From contig SVHF01000001.1 in NCBI GenBank assembly GCA_015055975.1, positions 70,752 to 134,751 of the forward strand: DNA of 64,000 nt, read 5' to 3'. The position numbers were made by a program, and so were the translations under genes. The stretch is from Clostridiales bacterium. Its GTDB lineage: Bacteria; Bacillota; Clostridia; Christensenellales; UBA3700. Shown in pieces: positions 54,302-64,000 of the stretch; within the stretch, counting starts at the first letter, position 1; the number at the start of each line of letters is the position of its first letter. A model generated the notes under the pieces. That model did not search any database. It saw nothing but the letters and a program-made list of their open reading frames with translations, and was not told the origin of the DNA.

Positions 54302-56275
54302 ATGGCAGCAGATAGTTATGGAGCAAAAGACCTTGAGGTTTTAGAAGGTCTAGAGCCGGTCAGGGAAAGACCGGGTATGTATATCGGAACCACTGGTTCA
54401 AAAGGTATGCATCATATACTTTGGGAAATCGTAGACAACAGTATTGATGAAATATCTAATGGATTTGGTGATTCAATCGATATTGAAATATTTGAAGATA
54501 ATTCTATTTCAGTTCAAGATAACGGTAGAGGAATTCCAGTAGATATTCACCCTAAGTACAAAGTGCCGGGTGTATATCTTGTTTTCACAAAATTACACGC
54601 AGGTGGTAAGTTCAACAATAAAAACTATAGTTTTTCTGGCGGACTTCATGGCGTAGGTGCCTCTGTTACAAACGCATTGAGCGCATGGACAAAGGTCCAA
54701 ATTTGGAGAGATGGTAAAGAATACCAAGTAGATTTCTATTCTCCAGAAGTAAATGGCAAAGTTAAAAGTGGTATTATCAAGCATGAATTAACATCAAAGC
54801 CATGTCCAGATAAGAAAAAGAAAGGAACAAAAGTTACTTTCTTGCCTGATGAAAGAGTATTTAAAGCTGAAAAGTTTGACTTCGAAGTAATTAGAAAGAG
54901 AATTAAGGATTTAGCGTTCTTAAATGCTGGATTAAAGATTTCAGTTACAGATCATAGACAATTAACAGATTCTGGAAAACCAAAGACAAAAGCATATTGC
55001 TATAAAGGTGGTTTAACAGATTTCGTTCAATATCTAAATGAAGGAAAGAATGTTTTATATCCTAATCCTATAACAATTGAGAAAAAACAAGATAATTTCT
55101 ATGTTTCTATTTCAATGCAATTAACAGATACATACAATGAAAATATTTTCAGTTATGTAAACAACATTCCAACTACAGAAGGTGGTACACACGAAGTTGG
55201 ATTTAAATCTGCATTGACTAAAGCTTTAAATGATTTTGGTAGACAAAAGAACATTATTAAAGAAAAACAAGAAAACTTTATCGGTGAAGATTTCAGAGAA
55301 GGATTAACAGCAGTTTTATCTATAAAGATGCAAAATGTTCAATTCGAAGGACAAACAAAGACAAAGCTTGGAAATCCAGAAGCAAGAACAATTGTAGAAA
55401 ATCTTTTAACTGATGCAATTAAAGATTTCTTGAATAATAAAGCTAAAAAAGATGTTATTGATGCAATATTTGCAAAAGCTGCACTAGCTTTAAAAGCTAG
55501 AATAAAATCTGCTGAAGCTAAAAATATCGCAAGAGCAATAAAGTCTAATACATCATCACTTGTTGGAAAACTTGCAGGATGCTCAGGCAAAAAGCCAGAA
55601 CTTAATGAATTATTCATAGTTGAGGGTGATTCAGCCGGTGGTTCAGCAAAGATGGGTAGAGATCCAAAGATTCAAGCAATTTTACCTTTAAAAGGTAAAC
55701 CGCTAAACGTTGAAAAGTGTAGAGTTGCGGACATCGTTAAAAACGATGAGCTTATCTCACTTATCAATGCATTAGGCGCTGGTTTTGATAAAGACTTCAA
55801 TGTTAAGAATCTAAAGTTCCATAAGATTATCATTTTGGCCGATGCCGATGAAGATGGTGGTCACATTAGATCAATCCTTCTAACATTCTTCTTTAGATAC
55901 ATGAAGGAACTAATCACAAATGGATATCTATATGTTGGTATGCCACCACTATATAGAATTACAGATAAGCAAGGAGTTAGATATGCCTATGATAATGTTG
56001 AGCTTCAAAAGCTATTAGAAACAGCATCAAAGGGATATACATTAAATAGATATAAGGGATTAGGTGAAATGAATCCATCACAACTTTGGGAAACAACAAT
56101 GGATCCAAAGAGACGTGCTTTAATGAGAGTTACAATTGAGGATGCAGCTGAAGCTGACCACTTAATTTCAACGCTTATGGGTGAAGAAGTTGGACCTAGA
56201 AAAGAATATATCTATGAGTATGCTAACTTCAACAAACAAGATGAATTTAAAGATATTATCAACAAGAAGGGATAG
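54302..56275 (+). CDS. parE: Type IIA topoisomerase subunit B (ParE/GyrB)
   Basis: GLEPVRERPGMYIG; FIVEGDSAGGSAKMGRDPKIQAILPLKGKPLNVE; RYKGLGEMNPSQLWETTMDP. Confidence 0.88.
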   Translation: MAADSYGAKDLEVLEGLEPVRERPGMYIGTTGSKGMHHILWEIVDNSIDEISNGFGDSIDIEIFEDNSISVQDNGRGIPVDIHPKYKVPGVYLVFTKLHAGGKFNNKNYSFSGGLHGVGASVTNALSAWTKVQIWRDGKEYQVDFYSPEVNGKVKSGIIKHELTSKPCPDKKKKGTKVTFLPDERVFKAEKFDFEVIRKRIKDLAFLNAGLKISVTDHRQLTDSGKPKTKAYCYKGGLTDFVQYLNEGKNVLYPNPITIEKKQDNFYVSISMQLTDTYNENIFSYVNNIPTTEGGTHEVGFKSALTKALNDFGRQKNIIKEKQENFIGEDFREGLTAVLSIKMQNVQFEGQTKTKLGNPEARTIVENLLTDAIKDFLNNKAKKDVIDAIFAKAALALKARIKSAEAKNIARAIKSNTSSLVGKLAGCSGKKPELNELFIVEGDSAGGSAKMGRDPKIQAILPLKGKPLNVEKCRVADIVKNDELISLINALGAGFDKDFNVKNLKFHKIIILADADEDGGHIRSILLTFFFRYMKELITNGYLYVGMPPLYRITDKQGVRYAYDNVELQKLLETASKGYTLNRYKGLGEMNPSQLWETTMDPKRRALMRVTIEDAAEADHLISTLMGEEVGPRKEYIYEYANFNKQDEFKDIINKKG

Positions 56276-56278
56276 AAT

Positions 56279-58735
56279 ATGCCAAAAAAGAAAATTGATG
56301 AACAAGTAGAAGATACATCAAAGATGCTTGAATGTACTGTTGAAGAAGTACTTCATAATTCTATGATTCCATTTTCTGAACACGTAATCATGGATAGAGC
56401 TATCCCAAGAATTGAGGATGGCTTAAAGCCAGTTCAAAGAAGAATTTTATATACAATGAATCAACTAGGCATCACTCCAGATAAGCCTTTTGTAAAGAGC
56501 GCTAGAGTCGTTGGAGATTGCTTAGGTAAATACCATCCACACGGAGATAGTTCAGTTTATGATGCAATGGTTAGACTTGCACAATCGTTTAACGTAAGAA
56601 TGCCACTTGTATCTGGACAAGGAAACTATGGATCTGTTGATGGCGATGGTGCAGCTGCTATGCGTTATACAGAAGCAAAGCTTGCGCCACTTGCTATGGA
56701 ACTTTTAAGAGATCTAGATAAAAATACCGTTAAGATGGTTTTAAATTTCGATGATACTTTGGAAGAACCAGACTTGCTTCCAGGTAGATTCCCAAACTTA
56801 TTAGTTAACGGCTCATCTGGTATCGCCGTTGGTATGTCAACAAACATCCCAACCCATAACTTAGGCGAAGTAATCGATGGCGTATGTGCATATATCGATA
56901 ATCAAAAGATTACTTTAGATGAGATGATGAACTACATCCCAGCTCCAGATTTCCCAACAGGCGCTCTTATTATTAAGAGCGAAGGCATTCGTGAAGCTTA
57001 TGAAACAGGTAAGGGAAAAGTTATCATGCGAGCTAAAGCTTCAATTGAAAAGGATGGAGATAAAGAATCTATTGTTATTACTGAAATTCCATTCCAAGTA
57101 AATAAAGCTGAACTTCTAAAGAGAATTAACGCACTTAGAGAAACAAAGAAAGATTTGTATGGCGGAATTCAAGATATCAACGATGAATCAAATAGAGATG
57201 GTATTCGTTGTGTAATTAGAATCAAGAAAGAAGCTAACGCAAAGAGAATTCTTGCAGGTTTATATAAATCAACTCAACTAGAATGTGCTTTCAATGTAAA
57301 CATGATGGCCATTGCTGATGGAAAGCCAGAACAATTATCTTTACTTGGTTACATATCTAGATATGTAGAATTCCAAAGAGAAGTTATATTTAGACGTTCT
57401 GAATATGATTTAACAGCAGCTTCAAATAGAGCACACATCTTAGAAGGTTTATTGATAGCAGTAAACAACATTAGACGTGTTGTAGATATTGTTTTATCTT
57501 CTCCTACATATGAAGAATCAAAAGAGACATTACGCAAAGAGTTTAATCTAACAGATAAGCAAGCAACAGCTGTTTTAGATATTCCTTTAAAGAGATTAAA
57601 TAGACTTGATGTTCATAAGATGGAAGAAGAGCTTGAAAATCTAAAGAAAAAGATTGCTGAACTTCAATCAATTCTTGAATCTAAGAAAAAGCAATTGAAC
57701 ATCGTCAAGAAGGAACTTCTTGAGATTAAAGATAAATATGCGACTCCTCGTATAACTCAAATCGTAGATGAACAAGAACATCCACAAATGATAAAAGCTG
57801 AAGAAATTATTGAAGCTCATCTTGTTTCTGGATACGTTCTTCTAAACTACATGGGCACATTGAGATTCATGACAGATAAGGCATATAAGATGGCTCAAAA
57901 GAATATCGTTAATTGCTCAGTAAATGAACTTGTAAAGAGAGCAATTAAAGTAAATGGCGACGAAAAACTTATTGCTTTGACAAAGAATGGCCAAGCTTGT
58001 GTATTTAGCGTAGATATGTTAACAGAGGATAAGTGGAAGTCAAAGGGAACCACAATTAATAAGCTTGGAAAACTAGATTCTGACGATGCAATTGTAGCTA
58101 TATTTGGCGAAGATGAATTAAAGGGAAAAGAATTATACTTTGCTACGCAAAACGGTATGATTAAAAAGACACCAGCTTCTGAATATCCAATGGATAAAAA
58201 AGCAACATATCCTGCAATTGTTCTAAAGGATGACGATAAAGTAATCAACGTTGAAATTGTAGATAAAGATGCAGAATTTATTGTCTTTGTAACAGAGTTA
58301 GGTAACATCCTAAATGCATATGCTGATGTACCTGAACAAGGAAGACGTTCAGCAGGCGTTAAGGGTATCAAGTTAAACGACAATGATAAGGTTAAATATT
58401 GCGCACAAAACAAGAACGAAGGAGAGATTGTTGTAATCCTTGCAAATGGTACTGCAAAGCGTGTCATTTTACCTTCAATTGATCCAAAGAATAGATACGG
58501 AAAGGGTGTAACCCTTTGTGAAGTAAATAAGCCAAAAGATTTAGCCTTCGTAGGACTAGTAACACAGCCATATGATTTTGCTATATTCTTTGTAGATGGC
58601 GATTTAGTTGCTGTAAGCACAGATGATGTTGATATCGAGGCTAGAACATCAAAAGGAAAGAATCTTCTAAAGAAGGTTGCTAAAAAGAAATACGAATCAG
58701 TTATCTATGCAATTTATGCACATAATTTGATTTAG
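56279..58735 (+). CDS. parC: Type IIA topoisomerase subunit A (ParC/GyrA)
   Basis: [46 protein letters not shown]; no canonical GyrA box QRRGGKG seen, so ParC-like. Confidence 0.85.
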
Positions 58736-58772
58736 TTTATTTGAGTTAGTATTTCAAATATTGGGCGAAGAT

Positions 58773-58806
58773 AGGTGGTTTTATAACCACCTGTTTTCTT
58801 TTTGTA
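58773..58806 (+). terminator. Terminator after parC
   Basis: AGGTGGTT-TTAT-AACCACCT-GTTTTCTTTTT. Confidence 0.8.
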
Positions 58807-58870: not shown

Positions 58871-61800
58871 ATGATAAAAAGAATATATGTTGAGAAAAGA
58901 CCTGAATATTCTGATGCTTTTTCAAGAGTAAAGCATGTTTTTAATTACTTAGATATTGAGGTTGAAGATTTTAGACAATTTGTTAGATATGACATAGAAA
59001 ACATGACAGAAAATGTTTTCGATATTGCAAAAACTACAATTTTTTCAGATACAGCGACTGAGATAGTTTATGATAAATTCCCAGCAGGAAGAAATTATTC
59101 AACTATTGTTGTTGAATCAGTAGATAGTTCATACAATAATAAACTTGCAGATATTTACTCAAATCTAGTTCTTATTACAGATTCTCATCCAATTATAAAG
59201 ACAGCAACTGTTTATGCAATTGCAGGTATTAATCAAGAACAATTATTAAAATTAAAAGATTATTTTATCAATAAAAGATTCAACCAAGAAGGCTCAATGG
59301 AGATTCCACTTACATTAACCGAAGAGGAAGAAGAAGTTGAAGATTCATTTGATGCGACAGGATTTACTAAATTTACAGATGAAGAAATGCTTCAATTTAT
59401 AGAAGCTAATTCGCTTCAAATGGATTTAGATGATGCGCTTGAGATTAAAAACTACTTTATCGAAGAAGAAAGAGAACCATCTAATTTTGAATTAAAAGTG
59501 TTAGATACGTATTTATCAGATAGAGTAAGACATACTGCATTTAATACAAAACTTACTAAGATAAAAATCGAATCAGAAAACCCACATATTCAAAAGGCGC
59601 TAGATATCTATAAAAAATTGAAAGAAAAAGATACACAAAAGAATGCGTCTTTAATGGATATTGCAACAATATTAAAAAAAGTTCAAATAAAGAAGGGTAA
59701 TCTAAAAGAATTAGAAACTTCAGAGGAAGATCACTCATCTACAATAGGCTTAGATATAAAAGTTAATGACAAGCCTCAAAAATGGTGGATTTCGTTTAAA
59801 AACGAAACGGATAACACACAAACAGAAGGTGAGCCATTCTCAGGAGCATCAACATGTGTTGAAGGCGTTATGAGAGATCCAATTTCAGAGCGTGCTTATG
59901 TATATCAAGGTGTTAGAGTCTCAGGAAACTCAGACCCAAGATTTAAAGATAGTGATATTCCTGGAAAGCATTCTCCATTTACAATTTCAAGAACATCAGC
60001 AAAAGGCGCTGCAGCTGCAGCAAACCATACAGGTGTTCCTTTTGGAATAGTTCATGAATTATATCATAGAGGATATAGAGCAAAGCATTTAGAGTGTGCT
60101 TGCGTTGTTGGCGCTGCAAATCAAGAAGACGTTGCTCGTGATAAAGAAGTTAAAGACGACGTAGTTGTAATTGTTGGTGCTAGAACCAAAAAGGAAACAA
60201 GAATTAGAAAGGGCGATCCATTAACTTTAAAAAAGCTACAAAGATTGTTCTTTAATAAAGAAGCTACAAAAATCATTAAAAAAGCTTATGATATCGGCGT
60301 TGGTGGTATAGTTTGTGCACTTGCAGAAATGATAGATCAAGGCGTAGATATTAACCTTGAATATGTGCCAACAGTTCAAGATAGTATAAGTGGAGAAGAT
60401 ATAGCAATATCTGAAACTCCAAATAGATTCTTAGTTTTGTTGTCTAAAGATGATGTAGCAAAGTTCATTGCGCTTGCAAATGATGAAAATCTAGAAGCAG
60501 CCGCTATTGCTACAATTACAACAACAAGACGTATCAAAATGTATTATGATAACAAGTGCTTGTTAGATATTAAAAAATCATTCTTTAAAGAAAACACTCA
60601 AGTTAAAGAAAAAGCAATTGCAAGAATTACAGATCCTGTAGTTCAAGACTTCTTTGAAAATCCATATAAAGATACAATGACATTGTTTGAAGATGGAGAT
60701 TTTAAGTCTGCGCTTTTAAATGAACTAAAGAGACTTGAAGTATGTTCTCAAAAAGGTCTTAGTGAAATTTTTGATTTCTCTATGGGAGCAGGAACTGTTT
60801 TGGCGCAAAATGGCGGTAGATTCCAATTAACGCCAGCTAACGCAACAATACAAAAACTTCCAGTAAATGGAGTTACAGATACAGCAACAGCTGTAACATT
60901 TGGTTGTGTTCCAAATCTTTTAGAGCGTTCTCCATTTATTGGTGCTATGTATTCAATAATATTATCTGTATCTAAACAAGTATCTGTCGGCGTTGATGTA
61001 GATAATGTATATTTATCACTTCAAGAATATTTCAAAAAATTAAGAACAGAAGAAGATAGATGGGGCGAAGCTACAAGTGCAATGCTAGGCGCAATGTATG
61101 CTCAAGATAAGTTAGGCATTTACGCAATTGGCGGAAAAGATTCAATGAGCGGTTCGTTTGAAGATTTGGATGTCCCACCAACTGTTATTTCATTTGCGCT
61201 TGGAATTACTTCAGCTTCGAAGACAATATCTAATGTATTTGCAAATTATAAAGATGAAGAAGAACTAAACCATATTTATCATATACCGCTAAAGAGAGAT
61301 GAATATGGCGTTCCCGACTTCAAATATTTAAAGAGTTTATATAAGGCATTAAATAGAGCAATAATAACAGGTGGAGTTAAAGCTTGCAATGTAGTTGAAG
61401 AAGGCGGTGTAATATCTTCTGTATTTAAGTCTTGTATGGGTAACAGATTAGGTACAACTTGGGAAGAGATCTTTGAAAGTTCGTATGCGCCACTTTTAGG
61501 CGACTTCATTATTCAAGGAGATGACTTATCTGAGCTTGCTTCATTTGATATGAAGCATATAGCCACAATCAATGGAACGCACACGTCAGAGTTATGCGGA
61601 GCAGAATTTAGAATGAGTGATGCTGTTGATGCATATGTCGACCCACTAGATCCAATTTATCCAGTTCGTTCTAAAGAATTTGGAAACGCTGGGAATTTGA
61701 TATGTTGTGCAAAGCAAGAAGAAAGAGTATCTCCAAACATAAAACCAACAGTATTGATTCCAATTTTCGATGGAACATTATCTGAGCGTGATTTAATGTC

Positions 61801-62524
61801 TGCATTCTATGATGCGCAAGCAAATGTAGAAACTTTTAGATTTAAGAACATGACACACGATGATGTTTTAGATTCTATTGGGGAGTTTGCAAAGAAGATT
61901 CAAAACGCTCAAATATTGGCTCTTCCTGATGGTATTAGAAATTTGAGTAAGCAAATATCTATTCTATTTAGAACAGAAGAAATATCTGATGCTGTAATGG
62001 AACTTTTAAACAAGCGCGATGGCTTAATTTTAGGTATCGGTAGCGGCTTTAAGGCGCTATTAGATTTAGGATTATTACCTTATGGTAAAATTTTGCAAGA
62101 AAAGCCAATAAACGCGCCAACTCTTGCAACAAACATTATTCCAAAGCATATTTCATCAATTGCAAGAATAAGAGTAGCTACAAATAAGACTCCATGGCTA
62201 TATGCGGATAGATTGAGTGAACAATTCTTAGTTCCTGTATCTCATAAAGAAGGAAGGTTTGTAGCTCAAAACGAAGTAATAGAGCAGTTAATTAAAGATG
62301 GGTTAATTGCTACACAATATGTAGATAGTATTGGTAATGCTACAATGACAGCTCCATTTAATCCAAATGGTAGTATGTATGCCATTGAAGGCTTAATATC
62401 TCCAGATGGTAGAGTATTTGGTAAAACTGGTAACGCAGAAAGATGCGGAAGGGATTTGTATAAGAATCTAGAGGGTAATCTAGATATGAAGATATTTGAA
62501 AGCGGAGTTAAGTATTTCGAATAA
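58871..62524 (+). CDS. FGAM synthase (PurL, single-chain) homolog with degenerate active-site motifs
   Basis: Full-length homology (EPFSGASTCVEGVMRDPISERAYVYQ; GGKDSMSGSFEDLDVPPTVISFA), but ETDNTQTEG replaces ETHNHPTE and GIGSGFK replaces GICNGFQ. Confidence 0.8.
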   Translation: MIKRIYVEKRPEYSDAFSRVKHVFNYLDIEVEDFRQFVRYDIENMTENVFDIAKTTIFSDTATEIVYDKFPAGRNYSTIVVESVDSSYNNKLADIYSNLVLITDSHPIIKTATVYAIAGINQEQLLKLKDYFINKRFNQEGSMEIPLTLTEEEEEVEDSFDATGFTKFTDEEMLQFIEANSLQMDLDDALEIKNYFIEEEREPSNFELKVLDTYLSDRVRHTAFNTKLTKIKIESENPHIQKALDIYKKLKEKDTQKNASLMDIATILKKVQIKKGNLKELETSEEDHSSTIGLDIKVNDKPQKWWISFKNETDNTQTEGEPFSGASTCVEGVMRDPISERAYVYQGVRVSGNSDPRFKDSDIPGKHSPFTISRTSAKGAAAAANHTGVPFGIVHELYHRGYRAKHLECACVVGAANQEDVARDKEVKDDVVVIVGARTKKETRIRKGDPLTLKKLQRLFFNKEATKIIKKAYDIGVGGIVCALAEMIDQGVDINLEYVPTVQDSISGEDIAISETPNRFLVLLSKDDVAKFIALANDENLEAAAIATITTTRRIKMYYDNKCLLDIKKSFFKENTQVKEKAIARITDPVVQDFFENPYKDTMTLFEDGDFKSALLNELKRLEVCSQKGLSEIFDFSMGAGTVLAQNGGRFQLTPANATIQKLPVNGVTDTATAVTFGCVPNLLERSPFIGAMYSIILSVSKQVSVGVDVDNVYLSLQEYFKKLRTEEDRWGEATSAMLGAMYAQDKLGIYAIGGKDSMSGSFEDLDVPPTVISFALGITSASKTISNVFANYKDEEELNHIYHIPLKRDEYGVPDFKYLKSLYKALNRAIITGGVKACNVVEEGGVISSVFKSCMGNRLGTTWEEIFESSYAPLLGDFIIQGDDLSELASFDMKHIATINGTHTSELCGAEFRMSDAVDAYVDPLDPIYPVRSKEFGNAGNLICCAKQEERVSPNIKPTVLIPIFDGTLSERDLMSAFYDAQANVETFRFKNMTHDDVLDSIGEFAKKIQNAQILALPDGIRNLSKQISILFRTEEISDAVMELLNKRDGLILGIGSGFKALLDLGLLPYGKILQEKPINAPTLATNIIPKHISSIARIRVATNKTPWLYADRLSEQFLVPVSHKEGRFVAQNEVIEQLIKDGLIATQYVDSIGNATMTAPFNPNGSMYAIEGLISPDGRVFGKTGNAERCGRDLYKNLEGNLDMKIFESGVKYFE

Positions 62525-63141
62525 TGGCAAAAATCACTAAAGTAGAACCACAAAAGAGAAATCCAGAAAGATGTAATCTATATTTAGATGGCGAATTTGT
62601 ATGCGCCATGTCTATGCTTGTTGTTGTTCAAAATCAACTACTTCCAGGTAAAGAAATAACTCAAGAAAAGCTTTTGGATATGGTTTTTAAATCTGAAAAA
62701 GAAAACGCATTTAATTATGCTGTTGATTATATCTGTAAATATGTTCCATCACAAAAGCAAATGACACATAAACTATATGATAAAAAATACACAAAGCGTG
62801 TTGTTGATTATGTTATAGAAAAGTGCAAAAGCTATGGATATATAGATGATGAAAAATATGCACAAAGCTATGTTTTCCAAAACAGAAAATTAAAAGGGAA
62901 AATAAAATTAAAGCAAGAATTAATGCTTAAAGGCATTAACCAAAAAATTATTGATGAAGTTCTTCAAGATTATGATGAAGAAGATGGATGCTTAATTTTG
63001 GCTAGAAAGAAAGCTTTAAATAAAGATTTGGATGATCCAAAAGTATATGCTCAATTGGTTAGATTTTTACAATATAGAGGATACGATTGGGAACAAATTA
63101 AATCAGCTATAGATAAGGTTAGAGCAAACGAGGACAATTAA
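62524..63141 (+). CDS. recX: Regulatory protein RecX
   Basis: SYGYIDDEKYAQSYV; KGKIKLKQELMLKGI; RFLQYRGYDWEQIKSAI. Confidence 0.88.
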   Translation: MAKITKVEPQKRNPERCNLYLDGEFVCAMSMLVVVQNQLLPGKEITQEKLLDMVFKSEKENAFNYAVDYICKYVPSQKQMTHKLYDKKYTKRVVDYVIEKCKSYGYIDDEKYAQSYVFQNRKLKGKIKLKQELMLKGINQKIIDEVLQDYDEEDGCLILARKKALNKDLDDPKVYAQLVRFLQYRGYDWEQIKSAIDKVRANEDN

Positions 63142-64000
63142 TGGAAAGATGTGTTAGCATTGATGAAATGAAATTATTTGATGCGACCGAAATAGAAAAA
63201 GTTGGCTCTACAACTTTAATGCAAAGAGCTGCAAAAGCTGTTTATGAAGAAATCTCAAATAAAAAAGCAAAGATATATATAATATCAGGTGGCGGCAATA
63301 ACGGCGGCGATGGTATTGCGCTTTTAGAACTATTTTTAAACGATGGTTATGAACCAAAATTGTTCTTAACTTCAAATAAGTTATCTAAAGATTCAGAATA
63401 CTTTTATAATAGAGTAAAAGACTATGCCAACATCTTTGATGTTGAAAAGTGTGATTACGATGCAGATATAATAATTGATTGCATACTTGGAACCGGATTT
63501 AAAGGCGAAGTTAAAGACAATATAAAAGATGTTATAAATAAGATTAATCAATCAAGCGCATATGTTATATCTGTAGATATTCCAAGTGGACTTTCTGGTC
63601 AAAGCGGAAAGGCAAGTGTAGCCATAAAAGCCGATAAAACTATTGCTATTCAATTTGCAAAATATGGACACTATTTAATTGATGGTAAAGATCATATAGG
63701 AGAATTAATTGTGAAAGATATAGGAATTCCAGCAATAAAAAATACAGCTTATATAATTGAAGATAAAGACATAGTTTTTAATCAAAGATTAAATAATACA
63801 AATAAAGGGTCTTTTGGAAAGGCAACAATAATTGGCGGATGTATAAATTATGTAGGTGCAATTAAGATTGCAAACATGGGCGTATCGGCACTAAGAGTTG
63901 GCGCAGGATTAAACACAATAGCAATTCCAAAATCCATATATGATGCTGTTGCTTCAAGTGTAGTTGAAAGTACTATCACTCTTTTAAAAGATGAAGATGG
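63141..64000 (+). CDS. nnr: Bifunctional NAD(P)H-hydrate epimerase/dehydratase, truncated by the window edge
   Basis: SGGGNNGGDGIALLELF; DIPSGLSGQSG; NKGSFGKATIIGG. Confidence 0.9.
   Translation, partial: MERCVSIDEMKLFDATEIEKVGSTTLMQRAAKAVYEEISNKKAKIYIISGGGNNGGDGIALLELFLNDGYEPKLFLTSNKLSKDSEYFYNRVKDYANIFDVEKCDYDADIIIDCILGTGFKGEVKDNIKDVINKINQSSAYVISVDIPSGLSGQSGKASVAIKADKTIAIQFAKYGHYLIDGKDHIGELIVKDIGIPAIKNTAYIIEDKDIVFNQRLNNTNKGSFGKATIIGGCINYVGAIKIANMGVSALRVGAGLNTIAIPKSIYDAVASSVVESTITLLKDED

Follow-up and report, generated by a model that had tools for sequence, protein, structure and literature searches.

A PurL homologue stripped of both active sites persists beside recX and nnr in a Clostridiales genus, probably as a pseudoenzyme freed by pur operon replacement

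Homologues of FGAM synthase (FGAMS) that lack key active-site residues are known from gammaherpesviruses, whose vGATs have no catalysis of their own and recruit active PFAS (PMC6868034). Dead copies of other enzymes have also acquired roles beside active ones. The trypanosome AdoMetDC prozyme, a catalytically dead paralogue, activates the active copy by binding to it (PMC5201418), and a preprint describes recurrent pseudoenzymes of eukaryotic PRPS at a node of the purine pathway, often with another active copy present (PMC13252144). Our limited search of the open-access literature found no report of a bacterial FGAMS pseudoenzyme, which does not prove that none exists. Here we describe such a candidate, pseudo-PurL, encoded in a 64,000-nucleotide stretch of a Clostridiales genome (the window, meaning the whole stretch that was analysed). 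We refer to the window genome as G000, and to the four other genomes of its genus as G001 to G004. There is good support for pseudo-PurL as a selected pseudoenzyme, since it is a homologue without the catalytic residues and is under purifying selection. We assign a probability of roughly 0.7 to the fuller reading, in which it is the former native purL, freed by operon replacement and now retained as a selected, non-catalytic pseudoenzyme.

A preliminary description, made from the letters of the window, had seen a full-length single-chain PurL with an intact frame, and this is what we find (Table 1). The frame begins with ATG and runs for 1217 codons with zero internal stops. The TIGR01857 profile covers residues 3-1216 (profile positions 1-1239, E 9e-303), with a score of 1007.3 bits that falls below the curated cut-off of 1057.05 despite the complete coverage. 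Pfam matches are to GATase_5 (180 bits) and AIRS_C, while TIGR01739, the herpesvirus v-FGAM-synthase model, stays below threshold at 27.5 bits against a cut-off of 716.1. With its complete profile matches the protein may still fold; mean AlphaFold2 pLDDT was too low to bear on this, at 33.3 for residues 160-1217, modelled with a five-row alignment, and 32.5 for the glutaminase domain alone.

Table 1. Features of the pseudo-purL locus, with positions in the window
Feature	Position	Strand	Basis
Hairpin resembling a terminator, 3´ of the topoisomerase A gene and 5´ of pseudo-purL; also seen in G003	58767..58798	+	
Pseudo-PurL, a full-length homologue of single-chain FGAM synthase (1217 aa) that has lost both active sites	58871..62524	+	ORF, profile, alignment
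SDRVRHT replacing SDHCRHT; Arg at the synthetase active-site His that corresponds to T. maritima H32	59516..59536	+	alignment
FKNETDNTQTEGEPFSGASTCVEGVMRD replacing FKNETHNHPTEIEPFGGAATCxGGAIRD; catalytic His (T. maritima H72) to Asp, second His to Thr	59795..59878	+	alignment
GARTKKETRIRKGD, shortened nucleotide-site loop (intact: GGRTGRDGxGGATGSSKAH...GAEVQKGN)	60176..60217	+	alignment
GGKDSMSGSFEDLDVPP, C-half motif, intact	61130..61180	+	alignment
LPDGIRNLSK, replacing and shortening the glutaminase oxyanion strand PGGFSGGDEPDG	61922..61951	+	alignment
GIGSGFK replacing GICNGFQ; nucleophile Cys (StPurL C1135) to Gly1057	62033..62053	+	alignment
SHKEGR (intact: SHGEGR)	62240..62257	+	motif location
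KTGNAER replacing KMGHSER; triad His (StPurL H1260) to Asn1188; Glu (E1262) kept as Glu1190	62423..62443	+	alignment
recX; its start shares one base with the pseudo-purL stop (TAATG)	62524..63141	+	
nnr (YjeF_N), running past the window end; completes the shared block purL-recX-nnr	63141..63998	+	

Both active sites are lost, as had been proposed, when the protein is aligned with 41 intact homologues drawn from the same family, the same order and Lachnospiraceae contigs. The intact proteins inspected in the alignment display SDHCRH, ETHNHPTE, the loop GRDGxGGATGSSK, GGFSxGDE, GICNGFQ and GKMxHxER. S. Typhimurium PurL was aligned as the 1t3t chain with its eight-residue chain offset corrected, and T. 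maritima H72 was placed by chain numbering and H32 by the SDHCRH/SEHC motif. For the synthetase and the nucleotide/Mg ligands we assume the site assignments of the UniProt/HAMAP PurL annotation, and we take the S. Typhimurium catalytic triad to be C1135/H1260/E1262, with H1260 in MPHPER. In the synthetase half, H220, H315 and H317 have become R218, D314 and T316, and the ETDN-bearing motif FKNETDNTQTEG occupies 59795-59830 within a segment that retains Lys, Glu and RD. In the nucleotide-site loop, 13 invariant residues are deleted, the deletions lying between 445 and 465. In the glutaminase, two of the three triad members (Cys and His) are gone and Glu alone is left. Losses are concentrated at the active sites (31 of 46 invariant positions lost, against 86 of 253 other invariants; p 3e-5), and the C-half has been spared, keeping 37 of 42 invariants compared with 147 of 268 elsewhere.

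The lesions had for the most part been read correctly beforehand, including the replaced glycine-rich loop, the missing catalytic Cys, the replacement of the GGFS(x)GDE region and the retained C-half motif. The E of ETDN, however, is at 59804, five bases from the 59799 given as the start of ETDNTQTEG. SHKEGR was a true reading, but the intact motif SHGEGR is not part of the catalytic triad, whose His belongs to MPHPER, which corresponds to KMGHSER. The list of losses was sound but incomplete, since it missed the triad His of KTGNAER and the His of SDRVRHT. An ATP-grasp-independent activity had also been suggested, a wording that does not fit, since FGAMS is an AIRS/PurM-type and not an ATP-grasp ATP enzyme.

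Neither sequencing nor alignment accounts for these changes. The homologue of G003, 81% identical, carries the same lesions, as does that of G001 (70% identical) within its sequenced part, and normal motifs are found in neither. Active-site residues are substituted or deleted relative to the 41 intact homologues; none sits at a shifted position. From the residues lost, pseudo-PurL would no longer carry out FGAM synthesis.

Could the protein catalyse something else? It might use the AIRS-type fold, the intact C-half and the remaining Mg ligands on another substrate, and every copy retains Lys310, Glu312, Asp336, Asp474 and Glu515 at the nucleotide/Mg site. The residues that replaced lost invariants are themselves conserved, G000 and G003 sharing 94 of 108. 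We nevertheless consider a new catalytic activity unlikely, because the nucleotide loop is deleted, the catalytic replacements differ by lineage, and no new motif common to G000, G004 and a second dead PurL described below (G152) was seen. Residual FGAM synthesis, for instance ammonia-dependent or by a subunit that uses another PurL's glutaminase, would fit the kept ligands and the strong purifying selection but is very improbable, given that the synthetase His residues, the nucleotide loop and the glutaminase Cys and His are all missing and that the same genome encodes an intact PurL.

This second PurL, whose presence had been put forward as a check, is fully canonical, about 40% identical to pseudo-PurL, and is encoded within a pur operon (purL at L004 6567-10253, - strand) on a different contig of the window genome (1.59 Mb, 98% complete). 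There the operon reads purM, purN, a PF07826 IMP cyclohydrolase, AICARFT-type purH, purD and purL, followed by fhs. Its start is seen in G004, as purE, purC and purF with a ZTP riboswitch upstream (RF01750, 56 bits, L043:903-1001, + strand, directly 5´ of the operon). Near the operon in the window genome there is also a purine riboswitch (RF00167, 65 bits, L004:3024-3122, - strand), just 5´ of a phosphoribosyltransferase-like gene. In the PurL tree the operon's PurL groups with that of G054, a member of a different family, and we refer to it as imported.

The origin of pseudo-purL is apparent from G002, which has one PurL, intact and 50% identical to pseudo-PurL, encoded by the last gene of purE-C-M-N-H-D-purL and followed by recX, nnr, an MFS transporter gene, dnaX, ybaB and recR. 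The dead purL has the same 3´ flank in the window and G003 (recX, nnr, MFS, dnaX, ybaB); the right flank in G004 agrees up to the MFS gene, and the G001 contig stops inside purL. This shared synteny identifies the dead gene as the positional orthologue of the native purL. The preliminary description had placed it with recX and nnr and outside a pur operon, and the locus proves to be the 3´ remnant of a lost native operon, of which the dead purL is the sole remaining pur gene. On the other side, in the window as in G003 and G001, the dead purL is preceded by a topoisomerase B-A pair. The pair in the window (54302-58735) matches subunit models of gyrase as well as topoisomerase IV, and it scores below the equivalog cut-offs for both gyrA/gyrB and parC/parE. 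A misbinned contig does not explain the arrangement, as the synteny is common to the window genome and three genus members.

Among 47 genomes of the family, both kinds of PurL are present only in G000, G001, G003 and G004, so that four of the five genomes of the genus have a dead native PurL and an extra intact one. A native-kind purD is absent from the same four genomes (the purD of G003 is cut by a contig end), and purD travels with the imported operon. The four dead copies form one clade of the PurL tree with 100/100 support, although a long-branch artefact could have drawn the G004 and G000 copies together. The branches leading to the dead copies measure 1.14 and 1.17, compared with at most 0.24 inside the imported clade, and later dead-copy branches are shorter (0.12-0.35). 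A tree of neighbouring genes joins G000, G003 and G001, then G004, with G002 outside, a topology that is best fitted by one import before the split of G000, G003, G001 and G004.

We propose the following course of events. The ancestor of the four genus members would have gained an operon of purE-C-F-M-N, a PF07826-type IMP cyclohydrolase, AICARFT-type purH, purD and purL. The remaining native pur operon would then have been lost, so that only native PurL stayed next to recX and nnr. No longer needed for catalysis, this PurL may have evolved very fast for a time, losing both active sites, and then have come under strong purifying selection in a non-catalytic role, which could be that of a binding partner, a regulator or a ligand sensor.

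Selection on the dead copy is strong, in support of the earlier suggestion that it is kept for a non-canonical role (dN/dS ~0.05). A pairwise codon model gives omega 0.046 for the G000-G003 pair (dN 0.106, dS 2.29) and 0.058 for G003-G001, values that are approximate at such high dS (2.3-2.9), whereas the codon-position counts (172/106/506) and the likelihood ratio of 973 against omega = 1 for G000-G003 are clear. For comparison, omega is 0.037-0.061 for the imported PurL and 0.01-0.05 for other intact pairs, deeper pairs having been left out as saturated (dS > 10). The constraint on the dead PurL is close to that on an active enzyme. Every domain of it has an omega below 0.13 (0.03-0.12), including the dead glutaminase at 0.06. 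Between the same two genomes, dN of the dead copy exceeds that of the imported one about 10-fold in the B1 domain (0.109 vs 0.011) and about 4-fold in both the A1 domain (0.096 vs 0.023) and the glutaminase (0.084 vs 0.019). In the N-terminal part and the C-half the excess is only 1.7-fold and 1.3-fold, respectively. The pattern looks like the loss of catalytic constraint with structural constraint kept.

These values bear on whether the gene is a relic in slow decay, open only by chance. It is the leftover of a displaced operon, its catalytic domains evolve several-fold faster than those of the imported copy, and the G004 and G152 copies are each known from a single genome, which puts their constraint beyond measurement. 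We nonetheless judge decay highly improbable. Neutral drift predicts tens of stops (25 in simulation at 0.1 substitutions per site, ~89 in frame at 0.6), while across four species the dead purL has neither a stop nor a frameshift, and the low omega and the constraint in each domain largely refute decay for the clade of G000, G003 and G001, in which the gene is not a pseudogene.

In the window and in G003, purL and recX overlap by one base; in G004 a short gap separates them, and in G002, where purL is intact, a spacer of 100 bases. Given the overlap, recX is probably co-transcribed with and translationally coupled to pseudo-purL, and such coupling may help to keep the frame. That the frame is retained only for coupling of recX and nnr is hardly plausible: the overlap and the terminator-like hairpin upstream would suit it, but coupling selects for an open frame and not for an amino-acid sequence, which is strongly constrained in all domains.

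A second case comes from G152, of family f31 in the same order, where another full-length dead PurL with an intact frame (L074 5537-9226, - strand) carries the motifs ETRNSPTEAD, GISNGFQ, GAMGFRER and PGGAVAADEP. Its relatives in genus g36 have single intact PurLs, with which it shares 55-56% identity, and its aspartokinase neighbour is also found in G190. G152, too, has a pur operon of the imported kind, purE-C-F-M-N-IMPCH-AICARFT-D-L, with an intact PurL. As its dead copy shares 41-47% identity with intact PurLs but 35% with the window protein, the loss was independent. The two lineages have lost 41 of the same invariants against 24 expected (p ~1e-6, treating positions as independent), among them H315, H317, C1068 and H1198. 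The dead synthetase motif was also sought with a degenerate DNA pattern, which detects only copies without the second His but with the remaining motif. It hit 2 of 397 genomes of the order (the window genome and G152), against none for its reversed control. In a 392-genome sample of the class the window genome was the single hit, so the dead state is a rare one. Two other observations were made in these genomes. A long ORF of GAPVSAVARQFPPWHASFRR-type repeats on the same G152 contig (L074:2622-3581, +) is possibly a translated DNA repeat array, and a PurL match in G222 (L100:5900-10150, +) is split into three pieces in different frames, possibly by frameshift or assembly errors.

Selection on a dead copy despite a capable imported PurL suggests a second job. 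Tentatively, and with more doubt than we attach to the history of the locus, bacterial PurL in general might have a further role besides catalysis for which an imported PurL is no substitute. Where a foreign pur operon of this kind displaces the native one, the native copy would then be kept, shed its active sites and become a dedicated regulator or partner, and the two independent cases would represent convergent loss of the same residues. For pseudo-PurL itself, the role we consider most likely would be binding to an active enzyme, either the imported PurL or another purine enzyme, because vGATs of gammaherpesviruses bind PFAS and other dead paralogues regulate active ones. Less probably, it might work as a sensor through what is left of its nucleotide site. 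Pseudo-PurL offers a clean system for studying roles of PurL besides catalysis. It also calls for caution in annotation, as the gene would be named purL on similarity alone.

How does pseudo-PurL compare with described systems? It shares length, domain order and end-to-end alignment with clostridial single-chain PurL (TIGR01857), and its positional orthologue, the intact PurL of G002, is of that type. Unlike TIGR01857 PurL, it is without both active sites and scores under the family cut-off. With the trypanosome AdoMetDC prozyme it has in common a dead copy beside an active one, but the prozyme differs in fold and pathway, and the active counterpart of pseudo-PurL is a foreign homologue. Like the PRPS pseudoenzymes, it belongs to the purine pathway and has another active copy; PRPS, however, is a eukaryotic multimeric enzyme of unrelated fold with its interfaces kept. 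The vGATs (TIGR01739) are, like pseudo-PurL, FGAMS homologues that have lost key active-site residues, but they are viral, of independent origin and a weak sequence match here, and they target a host immune protein. FGAMS pseudoenzymes were thus already known from herpesviruses; pseudo-PurL is a bacterial one, a 1200-residue metabolic enzyme that has lost both reactions and is still constrained, with operon replacement as the explanation of how it was freed.
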